This document shows, piece after piece, positions 12,600 to 30,682 of a stretch of DNA of 64,000 nucleotides. The stretch spans positions 1-64,000 of the forward strand of contig NZ_BSEJ01000015.1 in NCBI RefSeq assembly GCF_027921765.1, given 5' to 3'. The position numbers and the translations under genes were made by a program. Position 1 is the first letter of the stretch. Every line of letters begins with the position of its first letter. The notes under the pieces were generated by a model. The model saw nothing but the letters and a program-made list of their open reading frames with translations. It was not told where the DNA came from and did no database searches. This stretch comes from Microbacterium barkeri. GTDB taxonomy: Bacteria > Actinomycetota > Actinomycetes > Actinomycetales > Microbacteriaceae.

Positions 12600-12602
12600 G
12601 GA

Positions 12603-13493
12603 TCACTCCTTGATGGCGCCCGCGGCGACGCCGGCGACGAGCCGGCGCTGCAACAGGGAGAACAGGACGATGGTCGGCAGGGCGGCGATGACGGACGCGG
12701 CCATCACGACGCCCCAGTCGGTTCCGTACTCGCCGAAGAGGCCGGCGAGCCCCACCTGCACGGTCTTGAGCGAGTCGCTCGTGAGGAACACCTGCGCGAA
12801 CAGGAACTCCTCCCACATCGAGATGAACGCGGTGACGGCGACGGTGACGATGCCGGGCCACGTGAGCGGCGCGATGATGCGCGAGATCACCGTGAGCGTC
12901 GACGCTCCATCGACGCGCGCCGCCTCGTCGAGCGTGCGCGGGACGGAGTTGAAGAAGCCGGTCATGAGGAGCACGGCCAGCGGCAGCGTCATCGCGACGT
13001 AGACGATGACGATGCCGACATAGCTGTTGAGCAGGCCCAGCTCGGCGAAGAACAGGTACACGGGGGTCACCAGCACGACGAACGGGAGAAGCTGGGTCGC
13101 CACGAGCAGGAGCATGACGAGCTTCTTGACGCGGAAGGCGTACCGCGACAGGGCGAACCCCGCGAGGGCCGAGACGACGACGGTGACGGCGGTGCCCGCC
13201 AGGCACATGACGATGCTGTTCACCAGGTAGTGCTCGAATCCGGTCCCCGCGAACAGCCGCGAGTAGGCGTCGAAGCTGAGCCCCGAGAAGGCCGTGTCCC
13301 ACGTGATCCCGCCCGCGATCGCGCTCGCCGGCCGCAGCGAGCTGTACGCCATCCACAGCACGGGGAACACGATGATCAGGAGCACGGCGAACAGCGGGAT
13401 CAGCAGGAGGAGATCGGATGCCCGCCGGCTCTCCGCGGATACCCGACGACGGCGGGGAGCGCCGGCGGTCACGAGGGCGCGGGTCTGGCTCAT
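12603..13493 (-). CDS. Carbohydrate ABC transporter permease (MalG type)
   Basis: The 296-residue inner-membrane protein has about six helices, starting with LLLLIPLFAVLLIIVFPVLWMAYSSL after a basic cytoplasmic lead. The permease loop EAARVDGASTLTVISRIIAPLTWPG carries the EAA motif that docks the ATPase. It pairs with the MalF-type protein encoded directly upstream; the start codon overlaps that gene's stop (TGATG), implying coupled translation. No ATPase gene is in the operon, as usual for actinobacterial sugar importers that share an MsiK-type ATPase. Substrate is inferred from context to be a mannose-containing, possibly sulfated glycan. Confidence 0.9.
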   Translation of the reverse strand: MSQTRALVTAGAPRRRRVSAESRRASDLLLLIPLFAVLLIIVFPVLWMAYSSLRPASAIAGGITWDTAFSGLSFDAYSRLFAGTGFEHYLVNSIVMCLAGTAVTVVVSALAGFALSRYAFRVKKLVMLLLVATQLLPFVVLVTPVYLFFAELGLLNSYVGIVIVYVAMTLPLAVLLMTGFFNSVPRTLDEAARVDGASTLTVISRIIAPLTWPGIVTVAVTAFISMWEEFLFAQVFLTSDSLKTVQVGLAGLFGEYGTDWGVVMAASVIAALPTIVLFSLLQRRLVAGVAAGAIKE

Positions 13494-14401
13494 CAGGAGT
13501 CCTCCTTCGCGGTCACCCGCATGTAGATCACGGCGAACACCGCCATGATCGCGGTCATGACGAGGCCGATCGCGGCCGCTCCGCCCAGGTCGTTCGCGAA
13601 GAACGCCGTGGAGTAGAGCTCGGTGGCCAGGACGGACGTGAACGTCCCGGGGCCGCCGCCCGTGGTCAGCCAGACGTAGACGAAGTTGTTGAACGTCGCG
13701 ATCACGGTCACGAGCACGACGACCGTGAGGACGGGCCGCAGATTGGGCAGCGTGACGTTCACGAACGACGTCCACCGTCCGGCTCCGTCGAGGGCAGCGG
13801 CCTCATACTGCTCGTCCGGGATGGACTGCAGGCCCGCGAGCAGCACCATCACGGCGAACGGCAGCTCGCGCCACACGACGATCGCGGCGATGCACCACCA
13901 CACCGTGCTCGTCTGGGCGAGGAAGGGGACCCCCGCGTCGATCAGCCCGAGCGCCTGGAGCGTCTGGTTGAGGACGCCGGAGTTGCCGTCGAGGATCCAC
14001 TTCCAGGCGGCGACGGCCACGACGGGCGGGACCATCCACGGGATGAGCGCCATCGTGCGTGCGACCCCGCGCAGGCGCCAGCGCCGCAGCACGGGCGAGT
14101 GCAGGGCGATCGACAGCGCGAGCCCGAAGACGAGCCGCAGGACGACCGTCACGAGCGTGAGCCAGAACACCGTGTTGAACGCGGCTCCGCCGAACTGCGG
14201 ATCGGAGAACACGCGCTGGAAGTTGCGCAGGCCGACCCATTCGCCGTCGCCGGGAGCGTCGTACGGAGACAGCTTCTGGAAGGCGAGGACGACGTTGTAG
14301 ATGGACGGGAACAGGAACAGCAGCGCGACGATGACGAGCGCCGGGGCGCTCAGAAGATAGGGCTGCAGCCGTTCTCCCCGGCGCTTCGTCAGCGTCGCCA
14401 T
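13493..14401 (-). CDS. Carbohydrate ABC transporter permease (MalF type)
   Basis: This 302-residue permease has about six helices, beginning LLSAPALVIVALLFLFPSIYNVVLAF, and the EAA loop YEAAALDGAGRWTSFVNVTLPNLRP. It forms the channel with the MalG-type protein encoded downstream and receives sugar from the binding lipoprotein encoded upstream. Both its start and stop overlap the neighbouring genes by single bases (TGATG), so all three are translated together. It is the second gene of the operon read from the promoter at 15741-15713. Confidence 0.9.
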   Translation of the reverse strand: MATLTKRRGERLQPYLLSAPALVIVALLFLFPSIYNVVLAFQKLSPYDAPGDGEWVGLRNFQRVFSDPQFGGAAFNTVFWLTLVTVVLRLVFGLALSIALHSPVLRRWRLRGVARTMALIPWMVPPVVAVAAWKWILDGNSGVLNQTLQALGLIDAGVPFLAQTSTVWWCIAAIVVWRELPFAVMVLLAGLQSIPDEQYEAAALDGAGRWTSFVNVTLPNLRPVLTVVVLVTVIATFNNFVYVWLTTGGGPGTFTSVLATELYSTAFFANDLGGAAAIGLVMTAIMAVFAVIYMRVTAKEDS

Positions 14402-15678
14402 CAGCCCTGAAGACCCTGTTCGATGGTGTCGAGGATGGCGCGCGCCGCGGTCTCGCTGTCGGACTGCCCGGAGTAGACCGCCGAGAACTGCTGGTTGACG
14501 AGCTCCTGCAGCGACGCGGTCGTGATCGGCGCGCCGATGTACTTCGCGAACGGCACGGAGTGGGGCAGCTGATCGACGAAGCCCTGCTCGGCGGGGTCGA
14601 CGTCCAGCTCGGTGAGCGTCTGCGCCGACGCCGGGTACTGCGAGTAGGTCGCGAACGTGTCCGAGCTCATGAGGTACTCGATGAAGGCCCACGCCTCTTC
14701 GGGATGGGCGCTGTTCGCGTTGATGCCGAGGGCGCGGCCGCCCAGGTGGGTCGAGCCGTCGACGAGGCCTCCCGGCATGGGCGCGGTGGCCAGCTCCGCG
14801 TCGACCTGTTCCTCGACGGTGCGGAAGGCGGCGGGGGGCATGTAGGTCATGGCGCAGGTGCCGTCCTGCAGGGCCGTCGCGATCGCCGGGTCGGCGTAAT
14901 CGGTGAGCGCCTGCATGGACGCGGGCGTCGTGCCGCTCTCGAAGAACGCGTCGAAGTAGTCGATGGCCGCCGCGAGCTCGTCCTCGGAGACGCCCGCCTG
15001 CCACTGCCCGCCCTCGTTCTCGATGAGGTACTGGTCGTGGTTCCAGAGGTAGTAGTTGATCGCGAACCACTGCGCAGCGGGCTGCTGGGCGCCGGCGGCG
15101 AAGCAGAACCCGCTGACGGCGCCGTCACTGCCCGTGGTGATGTCCTCCGCGACCTGCTGGAAGTCCTCCCATGTCTCAGGGGTCGCATCGATGCCCGCGT
15201 CGGCGAGCACGTCGGGACGGTACACGAGCGCCATCGTGTCGGCCGTCCACGGGACGCCCCACGTGGTGTCGTCGATGACGGTCATCTCGGTCGCGAGCAG
15301 CTGGTCGGCGCCGTCGAGCGGCTCCGACGACATGAGGTCGTCGAGAGGCAGGAGCACGCGGGGCTGCGCGAGGAACGCGACGTCCGCGAGCGCCATGTGG
15401 ATGACGTCGGGACCCGAGCCCGAGTTCGCCTCGCGCGCGAACTGCTGCGGGTTGTTCGGCGTCACGGTCTCGAGGTCGACCTGGATGTCGGGGTGATCCG
15501 CGTTCCAGGAGTCGACGGCCTCGACGAGGCCCTCCACCTGGTCGGCGGGATCGAACTGGCGAAACGTGAGGCGGACGACTCCGTCCTCGTCCTCCGCGGC
15601 TCCCGAGCTGCATCCCGAGAACACGACGATGGCGAGCACGCTGGCTGCCACGGCTGACAGGTACCTCTGGGTCTTCAT
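14401..15678 (-). CDS. Extracellular sugar-binding lipoprotein of an ABC importer
   Basis: The 425-residue protein begins with a lipoprotein signal (MKTQRYLSAVAASVLAIVVFSGC), with Cys in an FSGC lipobox. The rest is a family-1 solute-binding protein: VTPNNPQQFAREANSGSGPDVIHMALAD and a hinge-forming PWTADTMALVYRPDVLADAG segment. Anchored outside the membrane, it captures an oligosaccharide for the two permeases encoded just below. It heads a four-gene operon ending in a sulfatase, and its promoter overlaps a dyad that the divergently encoded ROK repressor probably binds. Confidence 0.92.
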   Translation of the reverse strand: MKTQRYLSAVAASVLAIVVFSGCSSGAAEDEDGVVRLTFRQFDPADQVEGLVEAVDSWNADHPDIQVDLETVTPNNPQQFAREANSGSGPDVIHMALADVAFLAQPRVLLPLDDLMSSEPLDGADQLLATEMTVIDDTTWGVPWTADTMALVYRPDVLADAGIDATPETWEDFQQVAEDITTGSDGAVSGFCFAAGAQQPAAQWFAINYYLWNHDQYLIENEGGQWQAGVSEDELAAAIDYFDAFFESGTTPASMQALTDYADPAIATALQDGTCAMTYMPPAAFRTVEEQVDAELATAPMPGGLVDGSTHLGGRALGINANSAHPEEAWAFIEYLMSSDTFATYSQYPASAQTLTELDVDPAEQGFVDQLPHSVPFAKYIGAPITTASLQELVNQQFSAVYSGQSDSETAARAILDTIEQGLQG

Positions 15679-15712
15679 TGACGTTGCCTCTCCCTTGATG
15701 CGGACAGTGGCC

Positions 15713-15741
15713 AGTAAATTCCATCAAATTGAGTGTGTCAA
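15713..15741 (-). promoter_or_regulatory. Promoter of the glycan transporter operon with overlapping dyad
   Basis: The minus strand holds a near-consensus promoter: TTGACA (15741-15736), 17 bp, TTTACT (15718-15713), 35 bp ahead of the lipoprotein start. An imperfect inverted repeat around 15715-15732 (AATT arms either side of CCATCA) overlaps the -10 and spacer. A repressor bound there would block RNA polymerase, and the adjacent ROK gene is the obvious candidate. Confidence 0.75.
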
Positions 15742-15768
15742 GGCCATGTACTCGACTACGATCGGGAC

Positions 15769-17043
15769 ATGCCGAGCCGTGCCCCCTCTCCGCTCCCCCC
15801 GCGCGGACCCCGGCGGCGCGGGAGCAACCTCCCCCGCGTCGCCGACTACAACCAGATGCTCGTCCTCGACCTCGTCCGGCGCTCGCCGGGGATCAGCCGT
15901 GTCGAGCTGGTGCGCGAGACGGGGCTGACCGCGCAGACCGTCTCGAACATCTGTCGGCGCCTGACCGAGGCCGAGCTCATCCGCGAGACGGGCCGGGTCT
16001 CGGGGGCGGCCGGCGCCCCGCGGACGATCTTCGAGGTCAACGGCGCGGGGCGGTACACGATCGGCCTGCACATCGATCCCGCGCGGCTCACCTTCGTCAT
16101 CCTGACGCTCGCCGGCGACACCGTGCAGCGCCTGAGCATGCGCACGCCCGACACCCCCGAGCCCGGCGCCATGCTCGCGGAGATCGAGCTGCGGATCCGC
16201 GAGCTGATCGACGCGGCGGACATCCCCTTCGTCCGCGTCGCCGCTATCGGCGTCGCCACCCCGGGGCCGATCGACGTCGCCCAGGGATCCGTGCGCGACG
16301 CCCCAAACCTGCCCGGCTGGGAGGACGTGGCCCTTCGCGAGGACCTCGAAGAGCGCCTCGGGCTGCCCGTCGTGGTCGAGAAGGACACGACGGCCGCCGC
16401 CCTGGGCGAGCTGTGGAGCAATCCCCATCCGCCGCAGAACTTCGCCTTCATGTACCTCGGAACGGGAGCGGGGGCGGGGATCGTGCTGGACGGCGAGGTC
16501 CGACGCGGGTCGAGCTCCAACCTGGGCAACATCGGCCACATGAGCGGGGATCCCAACGGCCCGATCTGCCCCTGCGGCGGCCGCGGCTGCCTGAGCCTCA
16601 CGGCCCTGCCGGCGACGCTGGTCGGCGAGGCGGCGGCGCGCGAGCTCGTGAGCCCGGTCGATCTGGGAGACGCCCGCGCGGTCGAGCGTGCCCTCGCGGA
16701 GCTGTGCGCCGCCGCCGCCCAGCGCCCCGGCGGCGACGAGGCGGCCCTGATCGACCGCGCCGCCCGGAGCTACGCCCGCGTCGCCGGGCAGCTGGCGAAC
16801 GCGCTCGACCTGGACGCGGTGATCTTCGGCGGCCCGCAATGGCCCGCGATGATGCCGTCGATCCTGCGGATCGCTCCCCCCGCGATCGCCAAGGACTTCC
16901 TCTTCCACGCGCTGCACGACGTCGAGGTGCGCGGGTCGTCCATCAACGACGACGTGGGCGCCGTCGGGGCCGCGTCGCTCGCGATGTGGGCCACGACCTT
17001 CGACGCCCCCACGCAGCTGTTCCTGCCGGGTCGGACCGGCTGA
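15769..17043 (+). CDS. ROK-family transcriptional repressor
   Basis: The 424-residue protein has an N-terminal winged helix (VLDLVRRSPGISRVELVRETGLTAQTVSNI) and a C-terminal ROK sugar-kinase-like domain. It carries the ROK zinc motif CPCGGRGCL at about residue 265 and a phosphate loop YLGTGAGAG. It sits between the transporter operon it diverges from and the alpha-mannosidase gene downstream. It should bind a monosaccharide or phosphosugar released from the glycan and then leave DNA. Candidate operators are the dyads at 15715-15732 and 17076-17100. The start at 15769 is favoured over one 12 codons upstream, which would overlap the operon promoter. Confidence 0.88.
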   Translation: MPSRAPSPLPPRGPRRRGSNLPRVADYNQMLVLDLVRRSPGISRVELVRETGLTAQTVSNICRRLTEAELIRETGRVSGAAGAPRTIFEVNGAGRYTIGLHIDPARLTFVILTLAGDTVQRLSMRTPDTPEPGAMLAEIELRIRELIDAADIPFVRVAAIGVATPGPIDVAQGSVRDAPNLPGWEDVALREDLEERLGLPVVVEKDTTAAALGELWSNPHPPQNFAFMYLGTGAGAGIVLDGEVRRGSSSNLGNIGHMSGDPNGPICPCGGRGCLSLTALPATLVGEAAARELVSPVDLGDARAVERALAELCAAAAQRPGGDEAALIDRAARSYARVAGQLANALDLDAVIFGGPQWPAMMPSILRIAPPAIAKDFLFHALHDVEVRGSSINDDVGAVGAASLAMWATTFDAPTQLFLPGRTG

Positions 17044-17075
17044 GGAGGCCCCGGACCAGGGCGCCTCTGGCGGGG

Positions 17076-17100
17076 CTTTAATCCATATGGTTGACTAAAG
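17076..17100 (+). promoter_or_regulatory. Dyad operator and -35 of the alpha-mannosidase gene
   Basis: A 25-bp imperfect palindrome runs from CTTTA to TAAAG around a CCATATGG core. Its right half contains TTGACT (17091-17096), a good -35 element for the gene downstream; the matching -10 is poor. It lies just after the ROK gene. AT-rich dyads with TTTA/TAAA ends are usual ROK-family targets, so this is the likely second binding site. Confidence 0.6.
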
Positions 17101-17154
17101 CTCGCGTTCAGCGTGGTTCGCGCGACGCTTCCCCGTCATGAGAAGGAGTCCTCG

Positions 17155-20100
17155 ATGACCGAGGTCCGACAGCAGGATGCCGCCACGCAGGTCGTGCGCC
17201 GGCTCGACCGCACCCGCCGCGAGGTGATCGTCCCCGGCGAGATCCGCGCATCGGCCCCGTTGTCCGTCGCCGCTCGCGCGGTGGGCGGCGAGCCCGTCTC
17301 GTTCGCGGAGGGCACCGATGGCGTCTTCGAGCCCCTGGAGCCCGGCGCGGCATGGGGCCGGGCGTGGGACACGGTCTGGATGCACGTGTCGGGAGCGGTC
17401 CCCGACGGCTGGGAGGTCGGCTCCCCGGAACGGCGCGGAGCCGTCCTCGAACTGGCGGTCGACCTCGGCTTCACGGCCGCGCAGTCGGGCTTCCAGGCCG
17501 AGGGCCTCGTCTACTCCCCGACGGGCGAGGTGATCCGCGCGCTGTCGCCCCTGAACCACCGCATCGCGCTCGACGGGGAGGCCGGGACGCCCATCGAGTA
17601 CTGGGTGGAGGCGGCCGCCAACCCGACGCTCAACACCCCCGACGGGATCGACCTCATCCCGCTCTCGCCGCTGGGCGACTGGGACACGGCCGGCGACGAG
17701 CCGCGCTACCGCTTCGGCGGCGCGCGGCTGGTCCTCCGCGACGCCGAGGTCTCCGCGCTCCGCCACGACATCGATCTCCTGAGGGGCATCGCCGTCGCGG
17801 CGACCACCGAGCGTCGTCGCCGCGAGCTCGTCCTGGCCGCACTGGAGCGGATGCTCGAGGCGCTCGATCCCCAGGACTTGACCGGCACGGCGGCCGCGGC
17901 GCGGCGCGCTCTCGAGCCGGCGCTCGCGGCACCGGCGCACGCGAGCGCCATGACGCTGACGGCCGTGGGCCACGCCCACATCGACTCGGCCTGGCTGTGG
18001 CCGTTGCGCGAGACCGTCCGCAAGTGCGCGCGGACGTTCTCCAACGTCGTGACACTGATGGAGCAGAATCCGGACTTCGTCTTCGCGTGCTCGTCCGCGC
18101 AGCAGTTCCGCTGGATGAAGGACTTCTATCCCGACCTGTTCGCGCGCATCCGCGAACGGGTCGAGGCGGGGCAGTTCGTGCCCGTCGGGGGCATGTGGGT
18201 CGAGTCGGACACGAACATGCCCAGCGGGGAGTCGCTGGCCCGACAGTTCGTCGCGGGGCAGGGCTTCTTCCGGCGCGAGTTCGGGATCACCTGCGAGGAG
18301 GTGTGGCTGCCGGACAGCTTCGGATACACCGGCGCCCTGCCGCAGATCGCGCGAAGCGGAGGGGCACGCTGGTTCTTCGGGCAGAAGATGTCGTGGAACC
18401 GCACGAACCGGATGCCGCATCACACCTTCGAGTGGGAGGGGATCGACGGCACCCGCATCCTCACGCACTTCACCCCCGTGGACACGTACAACTCCGATCT
18501 GTCGCCTGCGGAGCTCGTCTACGCGAGCGAGAACTTCGAGGACCACGCGGGCTTCGGCGGCGGCATCGTGCCCTTCGGATACGGCGACGGCGGCGGCGGA
18601 CCGACGCGCGAGATGCTCGAGGCCGGGAGGCGCTCCGCGGATGTGGAGGGCCTCCCCCGCGTCGCCTTCGGCAGCCCGGCCGACTTCTTCGCGACGGCGG
18701 AGGAGGAGGCGTCCGGCATGCGCCCGCCCGTGTGGATGGGCGAGATGTACCTGGAGCTGCATCGCGGCACGTACACCTCCCAGTCGCGCACGAAGCGCGG
18801 CAACCGGAGGTCGGAGGCGCTCCTGCGGGAGGCGGAGCTGTGGGCGGCCACGGCGTCGGTGCGGACGGGTGCGGAGTATCCCGCCGAACGGCTCGCCGAG
18901 CTCTGGGAGCGCACGCTGCTGCTGCAGTTCCACGACATCCTGCCCGGCAGCTCGATCTCGTGGGTCCATCGCGACGCCGAGCGCCTGCACGCCGAGACCC
19001 ACGCCGAGCTCGAGGGGATGATCGCCGACGCGATCGCGACGCTCGTCGGAGAGGGCGACACCGAGCTCGCCGCGAACGGGTCCCCGTTCGATCGCGTCGG
19101 AGTGCCCGCGCTCGGAATCGCCGAGCGGGGCCCGGCCGACGACGCGCGCGCGATCGTCGCGCACGAGGACGGCGAGGTCATCCTGCGAAACGAGGCCGCC
19201 GAGCTACGGGTCGCCCCGGACGGCACGTTCTCGGCGCTCGTCGACCGCGCCACCGGGCGCTCGCTGTTCGATGGCGACACCCGGGGGAACGCGCTCCATC
19301 TGCATCACGACGTCCCGACCGACTGGGACGCCTGGGACGTCGACGAGCACTACCGCCGTCAGCGCATCGAGGTCGGTGACGATGCCGCGGTGGAGGAGCT
19401 GGACGGGCAGAGGCTGAGGATCACACGGCGATTCGGGGCGTCGACCGTGTCGCAGGTGGTGCGGATGAGCGCGCGCGGCGACGTCGACATCGAGACCACG
19501 GTGGACTGGCACGAGCGGCAGCGGCTGCTCAAGCTCGCCTTCCCGTTCCTCGTCGACGCGCGCCACTCCACCGCTGAGACGCAGTTCGGCTCGGTCGCGC
19601 GGCCGATCCATGAGAACACCTCGTGGGACGCCGCGCGCTTCGAGATCGTCGCGCACCGCTGGATGCACGTCGACGACGGACGCACCGGGGTCGCGGTCGT
19701 GAACGACTCGACCTACGGACACGACGTCACCCGCCTGCCTCTCCCGGGATCGTCCCGCTACGCCACCCAGGTGCGGCAGACGCTGCTCCGCTCGCCGCTC
19801 TACCCGGATCCGGAGAGCGACCAGGGCACGCACGTCTTCCGCTCCCGGATCGTGGTCGGGTCGACGTCCGACGCCGTCGAAGCCGCCTACGACCTCGACA
19901 GCGCGATCCGCACGGTCCGGGGACGCTCGGGCGTGGAGCCGCTCGTGCGCGTCGGAGGAGAGGGGGTCGTGCTGCACACCGTCAAGCTCGCCGAGGACGG
20001 CTCGGGTGACGTGGTCGTGCGCCTCTACGAGTCGCTGGGCGCGCCGACACGGGCGCAGGTCCGCGTCGCGGCCTCCGGGATCGTCCCCGTCGACATCCTC

Positions 20101-20273: not shown

Positions 20274-21638
20274 CTACAGCCCGAGGCGCTCCTCGACCAC
20301 CGCGGCGAGGCCGTCGGCGTGGCGCTTCGCGGTCTCCTCGTCGGCGGCCTCCACCATTACGCGGACGAGCGGCTCGGTGCCGGAGGCGCGCAGCAGCACG
20401 CGGCCGGTGTCGCCGAGCTCCTCCTCGACGCGGCGAACGGTCGCCTGCACGACCTCGTCGTCGACGCGGGCCTTGTCGACGCCGCGCACGTTGACGAGCA
20501 CCTGCGGGAACACGGTCATGATCGAGGCGAGCTCGGCCAGGCTCTTGCCCTGACGCGCCATCTCGGCCACGAGGTGCAGTCCGGTGAGCACGCCGTCGCC
20601 CGTGGTCGCGTGCGCGTTCATGATCACGTGCCCCGATTGCTCGCCGCCGAGCGAGTAGCCGTGCGCGTTCATCTCCTCGAGCACGTAGCGGTCGCCGACG
20701 GCCGCGGTCTTCACCGCGATGCCGCGGCCGCGCATGGCGACGTGCAGGCCGAGGTTGCTCATCACGGTCGCGACGAGCGTGTCGTCCGCGAGCAGCCCGC
20801 GCTCCTGCATCGACGCCGCGAGGATCGCCATGATCTGGTCGCCGTCCACGGCGACGCCGTCGGCGGTCACCGCGAGGCAGCGGTCGGCGTCGCCGTCGTG
20901 CGCGATTCCCACGTCGGCCCCGTGCGCGCGCACGGCCTCCGCGAGGTTGTCGATGTGGGTCGACCCCACGCCGTCGTTGATGTTCAGCCCGTCGGGGTCG
21001 GCGCCGATGACGGTGACCGTCGCGCCCGCGTCCTTGAACACCTGCGGCGAGACGCCCGCGGCGGCGCCGTTGGCGCAGTCGAGGACGACGTGGATGCCGT
21101 CGAGCCGCGCGGGCAGGGTGCCGAGCAGGTGCAGCAGGTAGCGGTCCTCGGCGTCCGAGAAACGGCGGATGCGCCCGACGTCGCCGCCCGTGGGCAGGAG
21201 CTTGTCGCGCTCCAGGTAGCGCTCGATGCGCTGCTCCACGACGTCCGGCAGCTTCACGCCCCCGCGGGCGAAGATCTTGATGCCGTTGTCGGGCGCCGGG
21301 TTGTGCGAGGCCGACACCATGACCCCGAAGTCGGCGTCGAGGTCGCCGATGAGGAAGGCGAGCGCAGGGGTCGGGATGACGCCGGCGTCGTAGACGTCGA
21401 CGCCCGAGGCCGCCAGGCCCGCCGAGACGGCCGCGCTGAGGAACTCACCCGAGATGCGGGGATCGCGCGCGATGACGGCCGTGGCGCGCTTGCCGGCGGC
21501 CCGGCGCGCCTCGGCGGAACGCCCCTGGCCCAGGACGACGGCGGTCGCCTGGGCCAGGGAGAGAGCGAGGTCGGCGGTGAGGGCTCCGTTCGCGAGCCCC
21601 CGCACGCCGTCCGTGCCGAAAAGCGGCTCTTCGGACAT
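20274..21638 (-). CDS. glmM: Phosphoglucosamine mutase with an IS-supplied start codon
   Basis: The 454-residue enzyme interconverts glucosamine 6- and 1-phosphate, an essential step to UDP-GlcNAc and peptidoglycan. The phosphorylated Ser111 lies in VMVSASHNP, the metal loop is DGDADR, and the ending [12 protein letters not shown] is typical. Its first five residues, MSEEP, are encoded by the inverted repeat of the adjacent ISL3 element (ATG at 21638 inside the repeat). Native sequence resumes at LFGTDGVRG. The original start, MPLFGTDG, is now stranded at 23095 beyond the insertion. No good ribosome site or promoter is visible before the new ATG, so expression probably depends on read-through or on a promoter inside the element. 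Confidence 0.95.
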
Positions 21639-21647
21639 CCGGTGGGG
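21617..21647 (+). repeat. Left target duplication and left inverted repeat
   Basis: CGAAAAGC (21617-21624) is the target copy on the glmM side. It is followed by the 23-bp repeat starting GGCTCTTCGGACATCC. Read on the minus strand, the repeat contains ATGTCCGAAGAGCC, which is the glmM start codon plus four codons now in use. Confidence 0.95.
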
Positions 21648-21680
21648 TGAGGGTGGCCGGGCGGTGATTCGGCGGTAGGG

Positions 21681-21738
21681 GTCGAGGTCCCCGAGGATCA
21701 GAAGCGCTAACTCTCTGATTCCGACCGAGGACCTCGAC
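21681..21738 (+). promoter_or_regulatory. Hairpin covering the transposase ribosome site
   Basis: GTCGAGGTCC (21681-21690) pairs perfectly with GGACCTCGAC (21729-21738), directly before the GTG start at 21739. A smaller stem, ATCAGA/TCTGAT (21697-21702 with 21714-21719), lies within the loop. The outer stem's right arm covers part of the GAGGA ribosome site at 21727-21731. If an external transcript entered the element it would fold and hide that site, a known way for insertion sequences to avoid activation by neighbouring promoters. Confidence 0.55.
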
Positions 21739-23058
21739 GTGCTTCACCCTACTTCGGGGTGCGCTGACGCGCGCCCCGCCGACTGTCCGTGTGCCCGCTG
21801 CGACCTGCTTCTCGGCCTCGACGGTGTCCATGTCGAGCACGTCGAGCGTCGCGACGGACTTCTTGTGGTGACCGTTTCGACTCCGGCGTCCCCGACGGGC
21901 TGCCCGGGGTGCGGCGTGCTCGTGACGAGCCGTGGTCGGCGCCTTCGGGTGCTGCATGACGTGCCGGGTGTGACGCGGGTGAGGGTGGTGTGGCGGCAGC
22001 GGATGTGGCGGTGCGGCGAGTCCGGCTGTCCGCGGAAGACGTTCGTGGAACAGGTCCCGTCGCTGGTCGCGCCGCGCGGGTCGATCACCGCCCGCGCCGT
22101 CGCGTGGGCGATCGGGCAGCTGCGTCGCGAGCACGCCACCATCCAAGGACTCGCCCGGCAGCTCGGGACGTCGTGGAAGACGGTGTGGCGGGCCGTCGAA
22201 CCCGAACTGGTCAAGCTCGCGGCGGACGAGTCCTTGTTCGAGAATGTCACCAGCCTCGGCGTCGACGAGCGCGTCTGGCATCACGTCGACCCGCGCCGAC
22301 GGGGGCCGAAGGAGCTGACCGGGATGGTCGACCTCACCCGCGACAGCCAAGGGAAGACGCGGGCCAGGCTGCTGGATCTGGTGCCCGGTCGATCCGGGAA
22401 GGCGTACGCGACCTGGCTCGGTGAGCGCGGCGACGCGTTCCGGAAGCAGGTGAAGGTCGCCGCGTTGGATCCGTTCGCCGGATACAAGACCGCGATCGAC
22501 GACAAGCTCGACGACGCCGTCGCCGTCCTCGACGCGTTCCACGTTGTGAAGCTCGGCACCGCCGCGGTCGACGAGGTCCGCCGTCGCGTTCAGCAGGACA
22601 CCCTCGGGCACCGCGGACGCAAGGGCGACCCGCTCTACGGGGTGCAGACCATCCTGCGCGCCGGGGCCGAGAACCTCACCGACAAGCAGCGGGTGAGGCT
22701 GACCGCGGCGATGGAAGCCGACCCCGCGCACGACGAAGTGTTCGTCGCTTGGCAGTGCGCGCAGCAACTCCGCTCCGCCTACCACCAGGGCGATCTGGCC
22801 GCGGGGCGGCGGATCGCTGAGCAAGTCGTCGACACGTTCCACACCTGCCCGATCCCCGAGATCGCACGACTGGGCCGCACCCTCCGCCGCTGGCGCGACG
22901 CGTTCCTGGCGTACTTCACGACGGGGCGGTCATCGAACGGTGGCACCGAGGCCGTGAACGGGATCATCGAGCTCCACCGCCGCCTCGCCCGCGGCTACCG
23001 CAACCGGCACAACTACCGGCTCCGCATGCTCCTCGCCGCCGGCGGACTCACCCCATGA
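21739..23058 (+). CDS. ISL3-family transposase
   Basis: The 439-residue protein starts with a Cys-rich zinc region (CPCARC, then GCPGCGVLV...CPRKTF) and a helix-turn-helix. The DDE transposase domain follows: [34 protein letters not shown], and the late [32 protein letters not shown] block. This order is diagnostic for ISL3. The frame is intact from a GTG start to a stop just inside the right inverted repeat, so the enzyme is probably functional. It cuts and pastes the element in the cytosol using the 23-bp ends. Confidence 0.94.
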
Positions 23059-23095
23059 CCCCCACCGGATGTCCGAAGAGCCCGAAAAGCGGCAT
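23048..23095 (-). other. Stranded native glmM start, now a 15-codon mini-frame
   Basis: The ATG at 23095 lies 15 bp after the rpsI stop and reads MPLFG, exactly the expected native GlmM start, but then runs into the insertion sequence and stops after 15 codons ([15 protein letters not shown]). It marks the original translation start of glmM and confirms that the gene was the last member of the rplM-rpsI operon before the insertion. Confidence 0.85.
23060..23090 (-). repeat. Right inverted repeat and right target duplication
   Basis: The 23-bp repeat at 23060-23082 is the exact reverse complement of the left end. It is followed by the second CGAAAAGC copy (23083-23090) on the rpsI side. One base beyond the repeat the two ends diverge. 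Confidence 0.95.
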
Positions 23096-23110
23096 GGAGT
23101 GGATCTCGCC

Positions 23111-23587
23111 TTAGCGCTTCGAGAACTGCGAAGCCTTGCGGGCCTTCTTGAGACCGGCCTTCTTGCGCTCGATGACGCGGGCGTCGCGCGTGAGGAAGCC
23201 GGCCTTCTTGAGGGTCGGGCGGTTGTTCTCGCGGTCGACCTCGTTGAGGGCGCGCGCGATGGCGAGGCGCAGCGCGCCGGCCTGGCCCGAGGGGCCGCCG
23301 CCGTTGATGCGGGCGATCACGTCGTACGCGCCGTTGAGGTTGAGCACCGTGAAGGGGTCCGTGATGAGCTGCTGGTGCAGCTTGTTCGGGAAGTACTCCT
23401 CGAGCGTGCGGCCGTTGACCGTGAAGGAGCCCGAGCCGGGGATGATGCGCACGCGGGCGATGGCCTGCTTGCGACGGCCCACGGCAGCACCGGGGACGCT
23501 CACGACGGGGCGCTCGGCCACGACGACGTCGTTCGCCGGCGTCTCGGTCGAGTAGTTCTGGATGTCGTTTTCGATTTCGTTCGCCAC
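23111..23587 (-). CDS. rpsI: Ribosomal protein S9
   Basis: The 158-residue protein has a variable acidic N-terminus of about 37 residues, typical of actinobacteria. The conserved S9 core follows ([46 protein letters not shown]). It ends with the basic [17 protein letters not shown] tail that reaches the decoding-site tRNA in the 30S subunit. It follows rplM by 23 bp in the universal L13-S9 operon. Its former downstream partner glmM is now 1.5 kb away because of the insertion sequence. Confidence 0.97.
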
Positions 23588-23610
23588 GATGAAGTCCTTA
23601 GGGGCGCCGC

Positions 23611-24060
23611 TTACTGGGCGACCTGGTCGAGGGTGTGCGTCTTGGGCTGCTGAGCGGCGTGCGGGTGCTCGGCACCGGCGTACACCTTCAGCTTCGCGAG
23701 CTGCTCACGGCCAAGCGTGTTCTTGGGGAGCATGCCGCGGACTGCCTTCTCGACAGCGCGGACCGGGTTCTTCTCGAGGAGCTCGGCGTACGTGACGGCC
23801 TTGAGCCCGCCCGGGTAGCCCGAGTGACGGTAGGCCTTCTTCTGCTGGAGCTTCTGACCGGTGAGCGCGACCTTGTCGGCGTTCACGATGATGACGAAGT
23901 CGCCCATGTCCATGTGGGGGGGGGCGAACGTCGCCTTGTGCTTGCCGCGGAGGAGCGCGGCGGCGTGCGAGGCGAGGCGTCCGAGGACGACGTCGGTGGC
24001 GTCGATCACGAGCCACTCGCGCTGGGCTTCACCGGCCTTCGGGCTGTAAGTGCGCGTCAC
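23611..24060 (-). CDS. rplM: Ribosomal protein L13
   Basis: The 149-residue protein is full-length L13: [29 protein letters not shown], then [33 protein letters not shown] and the RHSGYPGG turn. It is a large-subunit protein needed early in 50S assembly. A GTG at 24060 gives the family's normal N-terminus; an upstream extension in the same frame has no homology. It is the first gene of the operon with rpsI, and a small hairpin lies in its leader. Confidence 0.96.
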
Positions 24061-24079
24061 AGTAGTGCTGCTTTCTTTT

Positions 24080-24095
24080 CGAACGGAGACGTTCG
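24080..24095 (-). promoter_or_regulatory. Leader hairpin of the rplM-rpsI operon
   Basis: CGAACG and CGTTCG form a perfect 6-bp stem closed by a four-base loop, 20 bases upstream of the rplM start. Some bacterial rplM leaders are structured for autoregulation by L13, so this may be a fragment of such an element. No promoter could be fixed in 24096-24243. Confidence 0.35.
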
Positions 24096-24243
24096 TGAAT
24101 CCCGCTCCGGGCGGTGTGACCGGTCGATCCCGGCCTGCACGCGCGGTGGAGGGCTCACGTTCGCGACACCCAGACGGGTGCCAAAGAGACCGCTTAGCGG
24201 ACGCGCCCCGCAGAGGCAAAGCGGGACGGGGGATGCGGGCGCC

Positions 24244-24912
24244 TCACCGGTAGCTCGCGCGGACGAGGATGGGGAGGTGGTCGCTCCTGCCCTGCGGGAG
24301 GGTGGTGACGTCGTCGATCGCCAGGCCCGCGGACGTGGCGAAGTCGTAGTGCCCCTTGAAGAAGCGGTAGCGCGTGTAGGTGCGCGAGTCGGACAGGGTG
24401 AGGTCGTACCCCTGCCCGCGCACGCGCTCGTGCAGGCGCTCCTTGAAGACGGGGTAGTTGTAGTCGCCGACCATGAGGGTCGGCAGTCCCGGTCCGAGCC
24501 GGCCGAGCGCGCCCAGGGCGGATCGGATCTGATGGCGCCGCAGCGAGTTCAGGGCGGTGAGCGGCGCGGCGTGGAAGGAGGCCAGCACCACTTCGCGCCC
24601 GGCGTCGATGTCGAACAGCCGCGCGCCGAGGAGGCGCTCGTGCGCGGGCTTGAGCACGATGTCGTGCAGTGAGCGCTTGAGCGACATCATGACGACGTCG
24701 CTGAGGCGGAACATGTTCTCGCGGTAGTAGAGCGCGAGCCCCAGGCGGTTGCGCTGCGTGGCGCGGGCGAGCGCGAGCCCGCCGATGTGCGCGGGGAGAT
24801 CCGCCGTGTCGGCCTCCTGCAGGCACAGCACGTTGGCGTCCCACCGCTCGACGAGCCCTTCCAGCTCGGCGGCCGCGGCGTGCTTGCGCAGGTTGTACGA
24901 GATCACCTTCAT
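24244..24912 (-). CDS. Endonuclease/exonuclease/phosphatase family protein
   Basis: The 222-residue protein carries the EEP fold signatures: MKVISYNLRK at the N-terminus, LCLQEAD with the metal-binding Glu near residue 36, MVGDYNYPVF with Asp-x-Asn near residue 160, and the final SDHLPILV His. Members cut nucleic acids or remove phosphates from lipids or sugars; which applies here is not visible. There is no signal peptide or membrane helix. TACCCT lies seven bases before the start, suggesting a leaderless transcript. The gene diverges from the histidine kinase remnant, with 87 bp between. Confidence 0.8.
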   Translation of the reverse strand: MKVISYNLRKHAAAAELEGLVERWDANVLCLQEADTADLPAHIGGLALARATQRNRLGLALYYRENMFRLSDVVMMSLKRSLHDIVLKPAHERLLGARLFDIDAGREVVLASFHAAPLTALNSLRRHQIRSALGALGRLGPGLPTLMVGDYNYPVFKERLHERVRGQGYDLTLSDSRTYTRYRFFKGHYDFATSAGLAIDDVTTLPQGRSDHLPILVRASYR

Positions 24913-24999
24913 CCCGTCCAGGGTAGGCCTCTCCCGCCCCTCGGGCGCGGGATGCCGCGGCGAGCGCGGAGAGCCCGCGCCGCTGGCTACACTTCGGGC

Positions 25000-26874
25000 A
25001 TGAGCGCAGGCGACGAGGCGGTGACCCCCGGCCTCGTGGACGCGACGAGGTACGGCGGCCCGCTGGCCCGCTCGGTGTGGCGCTGGCAGCTCGTGATCGC
25101 CTTCGCCGCGGTCGTGATCGTCGCCGTCGTCGCCCTCCTGGCGCGCGACATCTTCACGCAGCCGGTGTTCCTCCTCGGCATGGGCGTCCTCGTCGCGACG
25201 ACGCTGGTCTCCCTCGTCGTCCCCTGGGACCGCCTCGGGGCGCGGGTCGCGTACGTCCTGCCCGCCGTCGACATCCTCGCGATCGGCCTCATCTCCGCCA
25301 GCAGCGACCTGCGCGTGGCGTACCTCTGGGTCTTCCCCATCACCTGGATCGCGACGTACTACTCCATCGGGCCGATCGTGGCGGCCCTGTGCACCGTGGC
25401 CGCGAGCCTGGTCGCGGCGGGGCTCACCACCTCGTTCACCAACCTCCACGCCGTGCGGCTCCTGATCGTGCTCGCCTCGCTCGCTTTCATCGCGACGACC
25501 GTCTGGGTCGGCGCCTCCCGCGGCCGGGCGACGCGGCGCCTGCTCATCCGCCAGTCGAAGCAGCTCGAGGGCGCCGCCGAGCGCGCCCGCCACCAGGAGC
25601 AGCACAGCGCCGCCCTGCTCAACTCCATCCGCGTCGGCGTCGCCCAGGTCGACGCGGACGGGCGGGTCACGGTCGCGAACGCGGCGTACCGCGACCTGTA
25701 CGGCATCGGCGAGATCCTGCTGCACCAGCCCACGCCCGCCGTGGAGTACCGCGCGCGGCGGGGCGAGGCCGTCCCGGCGGATGAGACGACGACCGCCCGC
25801 GCGGCGCGCGGCGAGACGTTCGAGGACGACGAGGTCTGGCTGTTCGACGTCGACGGCCGCTGGCGGCTGCTGCGGGCCTCCGCGCACCCGAGCCAGGAGG
25901 ACCCGGCGGGCGACCCGACCACGGTTCTCGTCGTGGAGGACATCACCGACGAGCGCGAGGCCGAGCGCGTGCGCGCGACGATGGCCCGCACGATCTCGCA
26001 CGAGCTGCGCAACCCGCTGACGGCCATCCTCGGGCACAGCGACCTGCTGCTCGAGCGCGACGACCTGCCCGCCGGCGTGCGCGACCGGCTGGAGGTCATC
26101 GACGACGCCGCCCTGCGGATGCAGCGCCTCATCGCCTCGGTGCTGCAGGACCGCGACGGCCGGGCGCCCGAGAGCATGTCGGAGTTCGATCTGGCCGGCG
26201 TCGTGCGCGCCTCCGCCGCGGCCTTCGCGGCGACCGCGCAGGCCGCCGGCGTCGTCCTCGACTCGACAGAGGAGGGCGGGCTCCTGCTCGTCGGCGACGC
26301 CTTCCGCGTCCGCCAGGTCGTCGACAACGTCGTCGGCAACGCCGTGAAGTACACCCCGCGCGGCGGCCGCGTCGACATCCATGCGGGCGCCGCCGGCGAC
26401 CACGTGGAGGTGACCGTCTCCGACACGGGGATCGGGATGGCCGCCGGCGACGCCTCCCGCGTGTTCGACCCCTATTTCCGCGCCGCCTCGGCGCCCAGGA
26501 GCCACCATCGCGTCGATCGAGGCACCGTGCGATCCGCCGCCAGTCGCCGGATGAGCCGGATCACGTCGGGAACGAGTCGGGCCGCCTCCCGCCAGTCCAC
26601 GTCTCGCCCTGCCCGCTTCGCCTGGACCCACAGGATGGCGATGAGCCCGAGCCACAGGACGAGGAGCGCGCCGAGCACCGCGAGGAGGATGTCGAGCCAG
26701 TCGGGCAGCGGCGTCATGCGGTGCGGAGGGCCGCGGCAGCCTGGTCGAGCGCGCCCTTGTCGATCGCGTAATAGGCCCACTTCCCCCGCTGATCGCGCGT
26801 CACGAGACCGGCTTCCGCAAGGAGCTTCATGTGGTGCGACACCGTTCCCTGGGAGAGCCCGACCGGCTCCGTGA
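25000..26874 (+). pseudogene. Sensor histidine kinase truncated in its ATPase domain
   Basis: Residues 1-180 hold about five to six membrane helices, followed by a PAS-like domain (about 205-315), HisKA with phospho-acceptor His334 (TISHELRNPLTAIL) and the start of the HATPase domain: N box Asn447 and G1 box DTGIGM (475-480). Homology stops at VFDPYFRAASA (about residue 497, position 26494), before the G2 box that closes the ATP lid. The frame then continues for about 127 unrelated Arg/Ser-rich residues, antisense to a DUF1232 fragment and arsR. The kinase should be inactive. No response regulator gene is adjacent. The start has TACACT six bases upstream, a leaderless pattern. Confidence 0.82.
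26472..26717 (-). pseudogene. 3'-truncated DUF1232 membrane protein gene
   Basis: The 81-residue product starts MTPLPDWLDILLAVLGALLVLWLG, a membrane helix, and continues into the DUF1232 lead-in RLIRRLAADRTVPRSTRWWLL. The core of that domain, including the hydrophobic helix with LPxDLxPDFIP, is missing. The frame instead ends in GAEAARK, which is antisense histidine-kinase sequence. Normal members are about 130-140 residues. The start overlaps the arsR stop as ATGA, so it was the second gene of that operon. It shares its broken end with the kinase pseudogene on the other strand. Confidence 0.72.
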
Positions 26875-27058
26875 GATCGCAGATGCACGCCTCACCGCCA
26901 TCCGCCGAGGCGATGAGCGACAGCAGCCTCACGCGCGTCGGGTCGCCGAGCGCCTTGAAGACGCGCGCGACGCGCTCCGCGTCCTCGATGCCCATGATCG
27001 ACGTGATCGGCGGCACGCAGCACGCGCTCGTCCCTTCGATCACCGCAGGAAGACTCAT
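26714..27058 (-). CDS. arsR: ArsR-family arsenical-responsive repressor
   Basis: The 114-residue winged-helix protein has Cys residues near the N-terminus (SACCVPP) and in the recognition region (EACICDLTEPVGLSQGTVSHHMKLL). These are the two places where actinobacterial ArsR proteins bind As(III). The start at 27058 is chosen over one 23 codons upstream because the longer version would run through the operator. It diverges from arsO, with two operator copies in the gap, so metalloid binding should release both promoters. No arsenite pump or arsenate reductase gene is next to it. Confidence 0.85.
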   Translation of the reverse strand: MSLPAVIEGTSACCVPPITSIMGIEDAERVARVFKALGDPTRVRLLSLIASADGGEACICDLTEPVGLSQGTVSHHMKLLAEAGLVTRDQRGKWAYYAIDKGALDQAAAALRTA

Positions 27059-27076
27059 GTCCCCAGTGTCGCACGC

Positions 27077-27128
27077 ATTGACATCTTTCGATAGGTCGGG
27101 CACGCTCGTCACATTGACATCTTTCAAT
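27077..27128. promoter_or_regulatory. Two ArsR operator sites in the arsR-arsO gap
   Basis: ATTGACATCTTTCGAT (27077-27092) and ATTGACATCTTTCAAT (27113-27128) are repeats of one 16-bp site, 36 bp apart. The second is a perfect ATTGA-N6-TCAAT dyad. Each contains TTGACA, suggesting the operators overlap -35 elements. AT-rich 5-N6-5 dyads fit ArsR binding sites. Confidence 0.8.
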
Positions 27129-27141
27129 CTGAGGAGATCCG

Positions 27142-28434
27142 ATGTCGCTGCTTCCCGTCGTCATCATCGGAGCGGGGCCGCAGGGCCTGGCCGCCGCCGC
27201 GCACCTCACCGAGCGCGGACGGGACGTCATCGTGCTCGAGAGAGGCCGCGCCGCGGGCGCCGCCGTGTCGGAATGGGGCCACGTGCGGCTGTTCTCAGCC
27301 TGGCCGGAGCTCATCGATGCCGCGGCGCGCCGCCTCCTGACTCCGACCGGATGGACCGCACCGACGGCCGGGTACCCCACCGGCGCAGAATGGGTCGACC
27401 GCTACCTCCTCCCCCTCGCCGCCGCCCTCGGCGAGCGCGTGCGCACGGGGATCGAGGTGACCGGCGTGAGTCGCGTCGGACGCGACCGCGTGGTCGACGC
27501 CGGGCGCGACGAGCAGGCGTTCACCGTTCACACGAGGGACGCGGATGGTCGTGAGGCGCGGATCCTCGCCGGCTCGGTGATCGACGCGAGCGGCACCTGG
27601 AGCCACCCCAATCCCGCCGGTGCCGACGGGCTTCCCGCCATCGGAGAGACCTCGGTAGCAGGCGCGATCTCCTATCGCATCCCCGACGACGTCTCCGCGT
27701 TCGCGGGGCGCCAGGTCGCGGTCGTCGGCGCCGGGCACTCGGCAGCGCACGCCGTGCTCCGGCTGGCCGAGCTCGCCAGGAAGACCCCCGGGACGGTCGT
27801 CACCTGGGCGCTGCGTCGGGGCGCGGCGCTCCTCGGCTCCGGCGACGCCGACGGGCTGCCCGAGCGCGCCGCACTGGGTGGCCGCGCGCGCCGCGCGATA
27901 GAAGAGGGCCTCGTCGAGGTCGTCACAGGGTTCCGCGTCGCGGAGGTGCGGGCTCACGCGGATGGCGTCGACCTCGTCTCCGAGGACGGACGACAGCTCG
28001 CGGGGCTCGGCCACGTGTTCGCGCTCACCGGCTTCCGGCCGGACACGTCTCTGCTGTCCGGGCTGCGCGTCGCCCTCGACCCGACCCTCGAGGCCGTCGC
28101 GGGGATCGCCTCGGAGATCGACCCGAACATCCACTCGTGCGGCACGGTCGCCGCGACCGGGGCGCGCGAGCTCGTTCAGCCCGAACGCGGTCTCTTCATC
28201 GTCGGAGCGAAGAGCTACGGCCGCGCGCCCACGTTCCTCGCACTGACCGGCTACGAGCAGGTGCGCAGCGTCGCAGCCCACCTCGCGGGCGATCACGAGG
28301 CGGCCGCACGGAACGAACTCGCCCTCCCCGAGACGGGTGTCTGCGGAGGCGCGGCCGCGTTCGACGAAGGAGGAGGAAGCTGCTGCGCGGCCCCGGTCCT
28401 GCAGATCGGATCGCGCCCGACCCCCGTGGAGTAG
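27142..28434 (+). CDS. arsO: ArsO-type flavin-dependent monooxygenase
   Basis: The 430-residue protein has an FAD loop VVIIGAGPQGLAAAAHL at residues 6-22 and a second dinucleotide loop VAVVGAGHSAAHAV near residue 195. It ends in a Cys-rich tail (VCGGAAAFDEGGGSCCAAP) seen in ArsO proteins of ars operons, where it may bind the metalloid. ArsO proteins are found with ArsR and are thought to oxidise an arsenical; the exact reaction is not settled. GAGGAG about 6 bases before the ATG supports the start. It is controlled with arsR through the shared operators. Confidence 0.78.
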   Translation: MSLLPVVIIGAGPQGLAAAAHLTERGRDVIVLERGRAAGAAVSEWGHVRLFSAWPELIDAAARRLLTPTGWTAPTAGYPTGAEWVDRYLLPLAAALGERVRTGIEVTGVSRVGRDRVVDAGRDEQAFTVHTRDADGREARILAGSVIDASGTWSHPNPAGADGLPAIGETSVAGAISYRIPDDVSAFAGRQVAVVGAGHSAAHAVLRLAELARKTPGTVVTWALRRGAALLGSGDADGLPERAALGGRARRAIEEGLVEVVTGFRVAEVRAHADGVDLVSEDGRQLAGLGHVFALTGFRPDTSLLSGLRVALDPTLEAVAGIASEIDPNIHSCGTVAATGARELVQPERGLFIVGAKSYGRAPTFLALTGYEQVRSVAAHLAGDHEAAARNELALPETGVCGGAAAFDEGGGSCCAAPVLQIGSRPTPVE

Positions 28435-28503
28435 GAGAGCACGGCGCCATGGTGCCGCGCCGGACCACGCCGAACCGGCCTCGGCCGGCACCCGCGCATC
28501 TGC

Positions 28504-28527
28504 CATAATCTGCGTATGGATGCAGAT
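28504..28527 (+). promoter_or_regulatory. Metal-regulator operator overlapping the start codon
   Basis: ATCTGC (28508-28513) and GCAGAT (28522-28527) form an inverted repeat with an 8-bp centre that contains the ATG at 28516. CATAAT at 28504-28509 is a -10 placed six bases before that ATG. An ArsR/SmtB repressor bound here would cover the start point of a leaderless mRNA. Confidence 0.65.
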
Positions 28528-28881
28528 AAGCGGATATGCGGAATGGATCTCGACAGCCCGTACGTCGAGCTCGCCGTCGAGGTCTTCCGCCTCCTCGCCG
28601 ATCCGACGCGCGTCCGCATCATCCTCGCGCTGCGGAGGAACGGCGAGCTCTCGGTCAACCGCATCGCCGAGGCCGTCGGCAAGTCGCCGGCGGCCGCGTC
28701 GCAGCACCTCGCGAAGCTCCGCATGGCGCGGATCGTCGCGACGCGGCACGAGGGCCAGCGCGTGCACTACCGCCTCGAGAACGAGCACGCGTCACAGCTC
28801 GTCGCGGACGCGATCTTCCAGGCAGAGCACTCGCTCAGCGACCATCCACGTCACCATCACATCGAGAGGGCCGGGGCGTGA
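28516..28881 (+). CDS. ArsR/SmtB-family metal-sensing repressor
   Basis: The 121-residue winged-helix protein (FRLLADPTRVRIILALRRNGELSVNRIAEAVGKSPAAASQHLAKLRMARIV) ends in a His-rich tail, HSLSDHPRHHHIE, which suits Zn, Ni or Co sensing. Cys8 near the N-terminus could add a ligand. Its stop overlaps the GTG start of the cation diffusion facilitator gene (GTGA), so the two form an operon. It should repress that exporter until metal rises, acting at the dyad over its own start codon. Which metal is sensed is not certain. Confidence 0.87.
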   Translation: MDADKRICGMDLDSPYVELAVEVFRLLADPTRVRIILALRRNGELSVNRIAEAVGKSPAAASQHLAKLRMARIVATRHEGQRVHYRLENEHASQLVADAIFQAEHSLSDHPRHHHIERAGA

Positions 28882-29897
28882 CCGCGCACAGCCATCCGCA
28901 TCACGACCACGCTCACGCGCCTCACGACCGCGAGCATCACGACCACGACCACGACCACCCGTCGGGGCTGCGCGGTCTTCTGCACGGGATCCTGGTGCCC
29001 CACTCCCACGACCCCGCCGACGCGATCGACGACGCGATGCGCGCCCACACCGAGGGCGTCCGCGCGCTGAAGATCAGCCTGGCGATCATGCTCGCGACGG
29101 CGCTGACACAGGCGGCCGTCGTCGCGCTGTCGGGCTCGGTGGCGCTGCTGGCCGACACCGTTCACAACTTCTCCGACACACTGACCGCCGTGCCCCTGTG
29201 GATCGCGTTCGCGCTCTCGCGACGCGTCGCCACCCGCCGCTACCCCTACGGCCTCAGCCGAGCCGAGGATCTCGCAGGGCTGTTCATCGTGCTCATGATC
29301 GCCCTCTCGGCCGTCGTCGCCGCGAGCGAGTCCATCCAGCGGCTGTTCGATCCGCGATCGGTGTCCAACCTCGGCTGGGTCATCGCAGCCGGCGTCGTCG
29401 GCTTCGCCGGCAATGAGATCGTCGCAATCTACCGCATCCGCGTCGGACGCAGGATCGGGTCGGCCGCGCTGGTCGCCGACGGAGTGCACGCGCGAGCCGA
29501 CGGCTTCACGTCGCTCGCCGTCGTGGTCGGCGGGATCGGAGTCCTGCTGGGGTTCCCGATCGCCGACGCGATCGTCGGCCTGCTCATCTCGATCATGATC
29601 GGCGTCCTGCTCATCGGAACGGTGCGATCCGTCGGCCTCCGCCTGCTCGACGGAATCGAGCCCGAGCTCGTCGACCGGGCCGAGCACGTCCTTGCGCACA
29701 CAGCGCGGGTGGATGCGGTCGAGCGCGTGCGGCTGCGGTGGGTCGGGCACCGCCTGCGCGGGGACGCCATCGTCTCCACGCGCGCGACCACGCTGATCGA
29801 CGCCGACCGTCTCGCGATCGAGGCCGAGCACGCGGTGAAGCAGGCGATGCCGAACGTCGACGAGATGACCGTCCGCGTCCGCTCTGCGCGCACCTGA
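28878..29897 (+). CDS. Cation diffusion facilitator metal exporter
   Basis: The 339-residue protein opens with a cytosolic His-rich tail (HPHHDHAHAPHDREHHDHDHDH), followed by six predicted helices. The transport site is HxxxD in helix 2 (LADTVHNFSDTL) and again in helix 5 (VADGVHARADGF), the His/Asp set typical of Zn/Cd exporters. A C-terminal cytoplasmic domain (ELVDRAEHVLAHTARVDAVERVRLRW) follows. It exports divalent metal in exchange for protons at the plasma membrane. The GTG start overlaps the upstream regulator's stop by four bases, so the two are translated together. Confidence 0.93.
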   Translation: MTAHSHPHHDHAHAPHDREHHDHDHDHPSGLRGLLHGILVPHSHDPADAIDDAMRAHTEGVRALKISLAIMLATALTQAAVVALSGSVALLADTVHNFSDTLTAVPLWIAFALSRRVATRRYPYGLSRAEDLAGLFIVLMIALSAVVAASESIQRLFDPRSVSNLGWVIAAGVVGFAGNEIVAIYRIRVGRRIGSAALVADGVHARADGFTSLAVVVGGIGVLLGFPIADAIVGLLISIMIGVLLIGTVRSVGLRLLDGIEPELVDRAEHVLAHTARVDAVERVRLRWVGHRLRGDAIVSTRATTLIDADRLAIEAEHAVKQAMPNVDEMTVRVRSART

Positions 29898-29948
29898 CGC
29901 GGACCAGGCCGCCCTCGCCCACGCTGGGATGCGGTCCATCGGTCAACG

Positions 29949-30437: not shown

Positions 30438-30526
30438 GCCCAGACCTCCGCCGAAGGACCGGTCCCGCACCAGGTCGAGGTGCTGCCTGACTGATCGCTA
30501 TGCGTCGGTGAAGAAATCACAGGAAG

Positions 30527-30682
30527 ATAACGCCGAGGGTTGCTCCCGTTACCTCCCCGTTATAGAGTCATCGCACGGCAGCTGTTTTGCTGTGGCAGCT
30601 GCCGACATGTGATTGCAGGACACTCTTGGTGCAAGGGACAAGGGCCGGGCGGCTTCCTCTCCGCCCGGCCCTTACTTGTGCC
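30527..30682 (+). ncRNA. Candidate small structured RNA with promoter-like dyad and terminator
   Basis: The 307-bp gap at 30438-30744 has no supported coding frame. It contains an inverted repeat ATAACG/CGTTAT (30527-30532, 30558-30563) at a TATAGA -10-like element (30561-30566), then an 8-bp stem GGCAGCTG/CAGCTGCC (30577-30584, 30596-30603). It ends at a long GC-rich hairpin, the layout expected of a short untranslated transcript. The -35 is poor and no known RNA family was recognised. It could instead be the remnant of a promoter whose gene has been lost. Confidence 0.33.
30628..30682 (+). terminator. Strong hairpin terminator before the MarR gene
   Basis: An 11-bp perfect GC stem (30642-30652 with 30661-30671) is extended by a further 8 pairs, two of them G-T (30628-30635 with 30675-30682), across a small internal loop. 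It insulates the marR-type gene from the upstream region and could terminate the candidate small RNA. Confidence 0.7.

Follow-up and report, generated by a model that had tools for sequence, protein, structure and literature searches.

The window analysed here, the first 64,000 nucleotides of contig C15 of Microbacterium barkeri (NZ_BSEJ01000015.1, assembly GCF_027921765.1), holds an insertion sequence (IS) of the ISL3 family lodged in the first codons of a glmM gene, whose frame is now entered from an ATG within the terminal repeat of the element. The same assembly holds a second, uninterrupted glmM on another contig, C2, and the explanation that we regard, with good confidence, as the likely one is a chance in-frame insertion into a redundant gene. 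The element would have transposed into a preferred AT-core target, GCTTTTCG, at codons 2–5 of a glmM belonging to an extra glmM-rpsI-rplM-endonuclease block derived from duplication or from transfer from a close relative; it would have chanced on the one frame in three that lets its outward ATG read into the gene; the C2 copy would supply GlmM; and the hit copy, probably silent or weakly translated, would be free to decay. An indispensable gene living on a transposon start codon would be striking, a case that the second intact copy removes, and the example shows that a startling reading of a single locus needs a whole-genome check.

The insertion and the new glmM start

The features of the element and of the gene it interrupts are as follows.

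20274–21638, minus strand: glmM, second copy, with its start codon now inside the left IS repeat
21617–21624: left target-site duplication, CGAAAAGC
21625–23082, plus strand: ISL3-family insertion sequence, 1458 bp, with perfect 23-bp terminal repeats and an 8-bp target duplication
21625–21647: left inverted repeat, outward strand ATGTCCGAAGAGCC
21739–23058, plus strand: ISL3 transposase, 439 aa (NF033550, PF01610, PF13542)
23048–23095, minus strand: remnant of the old glmM start, a 15-codon dead-end frame and then a stop
23060–23082: right inverted repeat
23083–23090: right target-site duplication, CGAAAAGC

The initial annotation had placed an ISL3 element between 8-bp direct copies, and both copies are there, immediately outside inverted repeats that are identical over 23 bp (GGCTCTTCGGACATCCGGTGGGG). 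The transposase scores above the curated cutoff for NF033550 (267.9 bits, cutoff 180) and above that for PF01610 (176.3 bits, cutoff 23). Given the exact duplication, the perfect repeats and the ISL3 transposase, the element is an IS insertion beyond reasonable doubt, and it resembles the ISL3 family in its HTH_Tnp_ISL3 and DDE_Tnp_ISL3 domains, its matching terminal repeats and its AT-core 8-bp target duplication, with no difference found. No other full copy was found in its own assembly.

Rejoining the flanks without the element yields ATG CCG CTT TTC GGC ACG GAC, hence a protein beginning MPLFGTDG, with 15 bp between the rpsI stop (23111–23113) and the old glmM ATG (23093–23095), which is exactly the excision product foreseen in the initial annotation. 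The element thus displaced the start of glmM, as had been claimed; the claim that it struck codons 2–4 needs widening, since the duplication starts with the third base of codon 2 and ends with the first of codon 5, which places the insertion in codons 2–5. On the glmM strand the left repeat now supplies ATG TCC GAA GAG CCG CTT TTC (MSEEPLF), so that the in-frame ATG attributed to the transposon end is real: situated at 21638–21636 on the minus strand, it opens a frame of 454 aa, as against 451 aa for the C2 copy, the excess being the residues SEE. It is also the first ATG, GTG or TTG after an in-frame stop 36 codons upstream, and the fused frame behind it runs uninterrupted and shows no further damage. 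Each end of the element carries an outward ATG 14 bases in from its tip, and the falling of this one in frame would be a one-in-three event. The encoded protein matches TIGR01455 at 545.9 bits (equivalog cutoff 447.55) and has four PGM_PMM domains; it is like bacterial GlmM in this score and in this full domain set, and it differs in its three IS-derived N-terminal residues and in being one of two copies in the genome. The junction between IS and glmM was sought in 361 genomes of the genus and is present only in this one.

Of 149 genomes searched in the genus, 19, this one counted, carry elements related to that of the window (E ≤ 1e-50). Perfect 8-bp duplications flank 10 of 26 complete related elements, the window element among them, and in these ten the target has A or T at positions 4 and 5 without exception and G or C at positions 2 and 7 in 85%; in the remaining 16 the two flanks differ, which later rearrangement may explain. 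GCTTTTCG, which comes from the Pro-Leu-Phe-Gly codons of glmM, matches this AT-core rule, and the choice of insertion site therefore needs no special explanation. The window element differs from each of two copies in another species (G096) at 11 of 1458 positions. Such identity (99.25%) suggests recent movement, and with so few differences its arrival by transfer in this lineage was probably recent.

A second, uninterrupted glmM

The genome comprises 3.5 Mb in 69 contigs and is listed as 99.99% complete with 1.72% contamination. Searching it with the window GlmM retrieved a second full-length glmM at C2:180041–181393, 89% identical and free of internal stops, which begins ATG CCG CTT TTC GGC (MPLFGTDG) and lies after rpsI and rplM. 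When 149 genomes of the genus were surveyed, 144 gave a match to glmM at E ≤ 1e-150, and this genome alone gave two glmM genes; at the same threshold five genomes gave no match, including one (G095) listed as 100% complete.

These results bear directly on the first reading of the locus, according to which an essential gene survived the insertion only because the transposon end gave it a start codon. That reading has on its side an exact insertion and an in-frame ATG, and it presupposes that the window glmM is the only one in the genome, which, given C2:180041–181393, it is not. With the C2 glmM uninterrupted, the cell need not rely on a start supplied by the IS, and GlmM function is presumably provided from C2. 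The initial annotation had itself named a second intact glmM as grounds for giving up its proposal; such a gene stands in the same assembly, and the probability that we would still assign to survival by start-codon rescue is very small.

Membership of the contig in the genome

The value of the C2 copy depends on whether C15 and C2 come from one organism. Were C15 derived from a second, related organism, the window glmM might be the only one of that organism, and two facts lean that way, namely the listed contamination and the difference between the glmM copies at about 13% of bases, a between-species level. Against it stands the outcome of searching some 51 kb of C15, which is 84.8 kb long, against its own genome (positions 1–2500, 34001–36000 and 56001–84836 being covered by a comparison of proteins with sampled stretches that total about 400 kb): a close second copy appeared only for the four-gene block and a piece of ppx. 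Window positions 23100–34000 match only the C2 block; positions 2501–20000 yield one match of 69%, one of 76% and the ppx piece at 84%; and positions 36001–56000 (E ≤ 1e-20) yield a single 226-base match of 72% besides a 72–73% paralog that lies on C15 itself. In the other direction, C2 168000–187900 has its counterparts on C15 in the block and the ppx piece, and beyond these gives only short or weak matches of 68–72%. All seven relatives searched carry sequence related to 36001–56000, the longest pieces in G032 being 83–87% identical. A foreign C15 would apparently leave the host without close forms of these genes. As a separate matter, C15 contains two long paralogous regions, 48487–52215 and 77221–81570, whose DNA is 72–73% identical.

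Tetranucleotide usage agrees with membership: four C15 stretches correlate at 0.983–0.990 with the average profile of 19 stretches taken from the other contigs, whose own values range from 0.912 to 0.988. This fit lends the case weak support, because single stretches of the relatives G032 (0.964) and G056 (0.954) also fall within range. Contamination is made unlikely by the lack of comparable duplication elsewhere in the searched parts of C15, and from these comparisons both glmM copies very likely belong to one genome; a foreign origin of the contig we hold to be highly improbable.

The extra block, its place and its history

The block to which the interrupted gene belongs, glmM-rpsI-rplM-endonuclease, duplicates the C2 block over window positions 20278–24929 minus the IS, with the ppx piece in addition; DNA similarity to C2 stops near 24929. 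Its further members and the gene that adjoins it are as follows.

23111–23587, minus strand: rpsI, second copy, 97.7% identical in nucleotides to the C2 copy
23611–24060, minus strand: rplM, second copy, with a one-codon (Pro) insertion
24244–24912, minus strand: Exo_endo_phos-family gene, second copy
25000–26874, plus strand: histidine kinase adjoining the block, in the arrangement of the relative G032

The histidine kinase has no second copy in the assembly at the DNA level. At 9145–9987 the window also has a ppx/gppA-like frame that lacks its N-terminal part. The complete ppx on C2, whose DNA is 84% identical to this piece, agrees with it in orientation and in the side of glmM on which it lies.

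Comparison with relatives points to C2 as the native place and to the window block as displaced, since some of the C2 neighbours of glmM recur near it in relatives and the flanks of the window block map far from glmM there. The genes near glmM on C2 are, as we take them to be from the appearance of their proteins, coaA, ppx, ribA, truA, mtnN, luxS, rplQ and rpoA, among which ppx was the one submitted to a family search. Of five relatives whose glmM regions were fetched, four have ppx nearby (G157, G032, G056 and G233) and three have coaA (G157, G056 and G233); neither gene is in the stretch fetched from G212, and truA, mtnN, luxS, rplQ and rpoA are absent from all five stretches. Window positions 30.5–34 kb map to 509–512 kb in G157, where glmM is at 2690 kb, and to 2663–2666 kb in G032, where glmM is at 1567 kb. 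The history of the copies may be more tangled, however, since in G032 the endonuclease-histidine kinase pair adjoins rplM just as in the window, and the G032 relative of the window oxidoreductase (27142–28434) lies a few kb from glmM. The C2 copy is accordingly no more than the likelier native one, and the conclusion of redundancy holds whichever copy is native.

As for the age of the block, the glmM genes of the window and C2 are 87.2% identical in nucleotides, those of the window and G157 86.7%, and those of C2 and G157 88.1%. A tree of 12 glmM sequences shows a near three-way split among C15, C2 and G157 whose branching is not resolved, and the AU test does not reject a grouping of C15 with C2 (p 0.281 with glmM, 0.117 with three genes). 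The extra block may thus stem from an old duplication within the lineage or from transfer from a close relative, both possible origins. Purifying selection acted on the window glmM through most of its past: dN/dS relative to the C2 gene comes to 0.17, and of the 21 non-synonymous changes peculiar to the window copy none falls where the other 20 sequences are invariant. In the window rplM, nine C in a row add one in-frame proline that is absent from all 20 compared copies, possibly a mark of relaxed constraint. A natural rplM-rpsI-glmM duplicate may be starting to decay, through a one-codon insertion in rplM and the IS in glmM. The rpsI copies, for their part, are far closer to each other (dS 0.09) than the glmM copies (dS 0.39), a disparity that may point to gene conversion.

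Prospects for use of the new start

An in-frame ATG is of consequence only if the gene is transcribed and the codon is reached by ribosomes. The initial annotation had seen no clear promoter or ribosome site upstream, and the calculations bear this out. A consensus scan of 21400–24400 found no sigma-70-like site, although promoters of other types may escape such a scan. The 20 nt that precede the repeat ATG pair with the anti-SD sequence at −0.9 kcal/mol, compared with −4.9 kcal/mol at the C2 glmM start and a median of −3.1 kcal/mol for 500 random 20-mers from the window. By these two measures, then, neither a promoter-like site nor a ribosome site was found for the new start.

Should the protein be made, it would be expected to fold and to tolerate its MSEEP tail, because the alignment to solved GlmM starts at residue 6 in all six chains listed. 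The fused gene might be translated from the repeat ATG into a working second GlmM, whether on a transcript that reads through from rplM-rpsI, by leaderless or other SD-less initiation, or with the help of a promoter type outside the scan. An open in-frame ATG, all four PGM_PMM domains, a tail beyond the region alignable to solved GlmM and a coding sequence constrained until recently would all accord with this; the 1458 bp of IS now separating the gene from rpsI, the anti-SD pairing weaker than the random median, the want of a promoter-like site and the superfluity of a second enzyme if the C2 copy works all tell against it. We think such translation unlikely. Under the preferred explanation, a chance hit on a redundant copy, the window glmM is probably silent or weakly translated.

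IS elements can activate or re-start neighbouring genes via outward promoters or start codons. The window resembles such cases in having an IS end in frame with the downstream gene, and it differs in that neither a promoter-like nor a ribosome site was found and no need for activation is evident. Among the titles and abstract openings that a literature search returned, there is no named case of an IS giving a start codon to glmM or to another essential gene. The available portions of two papers (PMC2516522, PMC4133298) describe insertion sites that supply stop codons, not start codons, to the transposase, and those of PMC2516522 make no mention of ISL3.

Start codons at IS ends in relatives

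The outward ATG is not special to the window copy, being present in 35 of 40 IS ends of relatives in the genus. Its use was gauged from 111 distinct outward ends at 106 loci (at least 80 stretches) among the matches listed, a set that includes both ends of the window element and was gathered with a search pattern containing the outward ATG by design, so that it consists of ends with the ATG, a flank of at least 350 bp, at most 3 mismatches in the 20-base repeat and flanks counted without repeats. With frame 0 as the frame of the ATG, stop-free runs of at least 100 codons into the flank number 19, 22 and 16 in frames 0, 1 and 2 for the 111 ends among the matches listed; for runs of at least 150 codons the counts for these listed ends, the glmM case included, are 16, 12 and 11, and for at least 200 codons, again with glmM, 9, 7 and 3. 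The ATG frame is slightly ahead in these longer runs, a weak hint of real start donation that counts against the explanation preferred here.

A general role of the IS end as a start donor was considered and found unsupported, the ATG frame having no clear preference in the 111 ends listed.

Other in-frame joins, of the kind that the initial annotation had proposed to look for, do occur. In M. paludicola (L127, 114–908) the same ATG reads in frame into rfbA, but the aligned part starts at position 29 of the RmlA profile (286 positions), the first 28 being missing; an in-frame join need not preserve function, and a truncated protein can result. In M. helvum (L114) the ATG opens an in-frame frame of 391 aa that has no family match above curated cutoff. 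One might still imagine that this ISL3 group carries at its ends a portable start codon with an MSEEP tag, such that insertions near gene starts yield working, N-terminally retagged proteins, with glmM as one case and L114 as a possible second. We consider such a scheme quite improbable.

Many contigs of M. paludicola and M. helvum (L108, L109, L114, L127, L129 and others listed) seem to stop about 100 bases inside the IS group, as judged by stretch lengths and match positions, which suggests a high copy number of these elements in both species.
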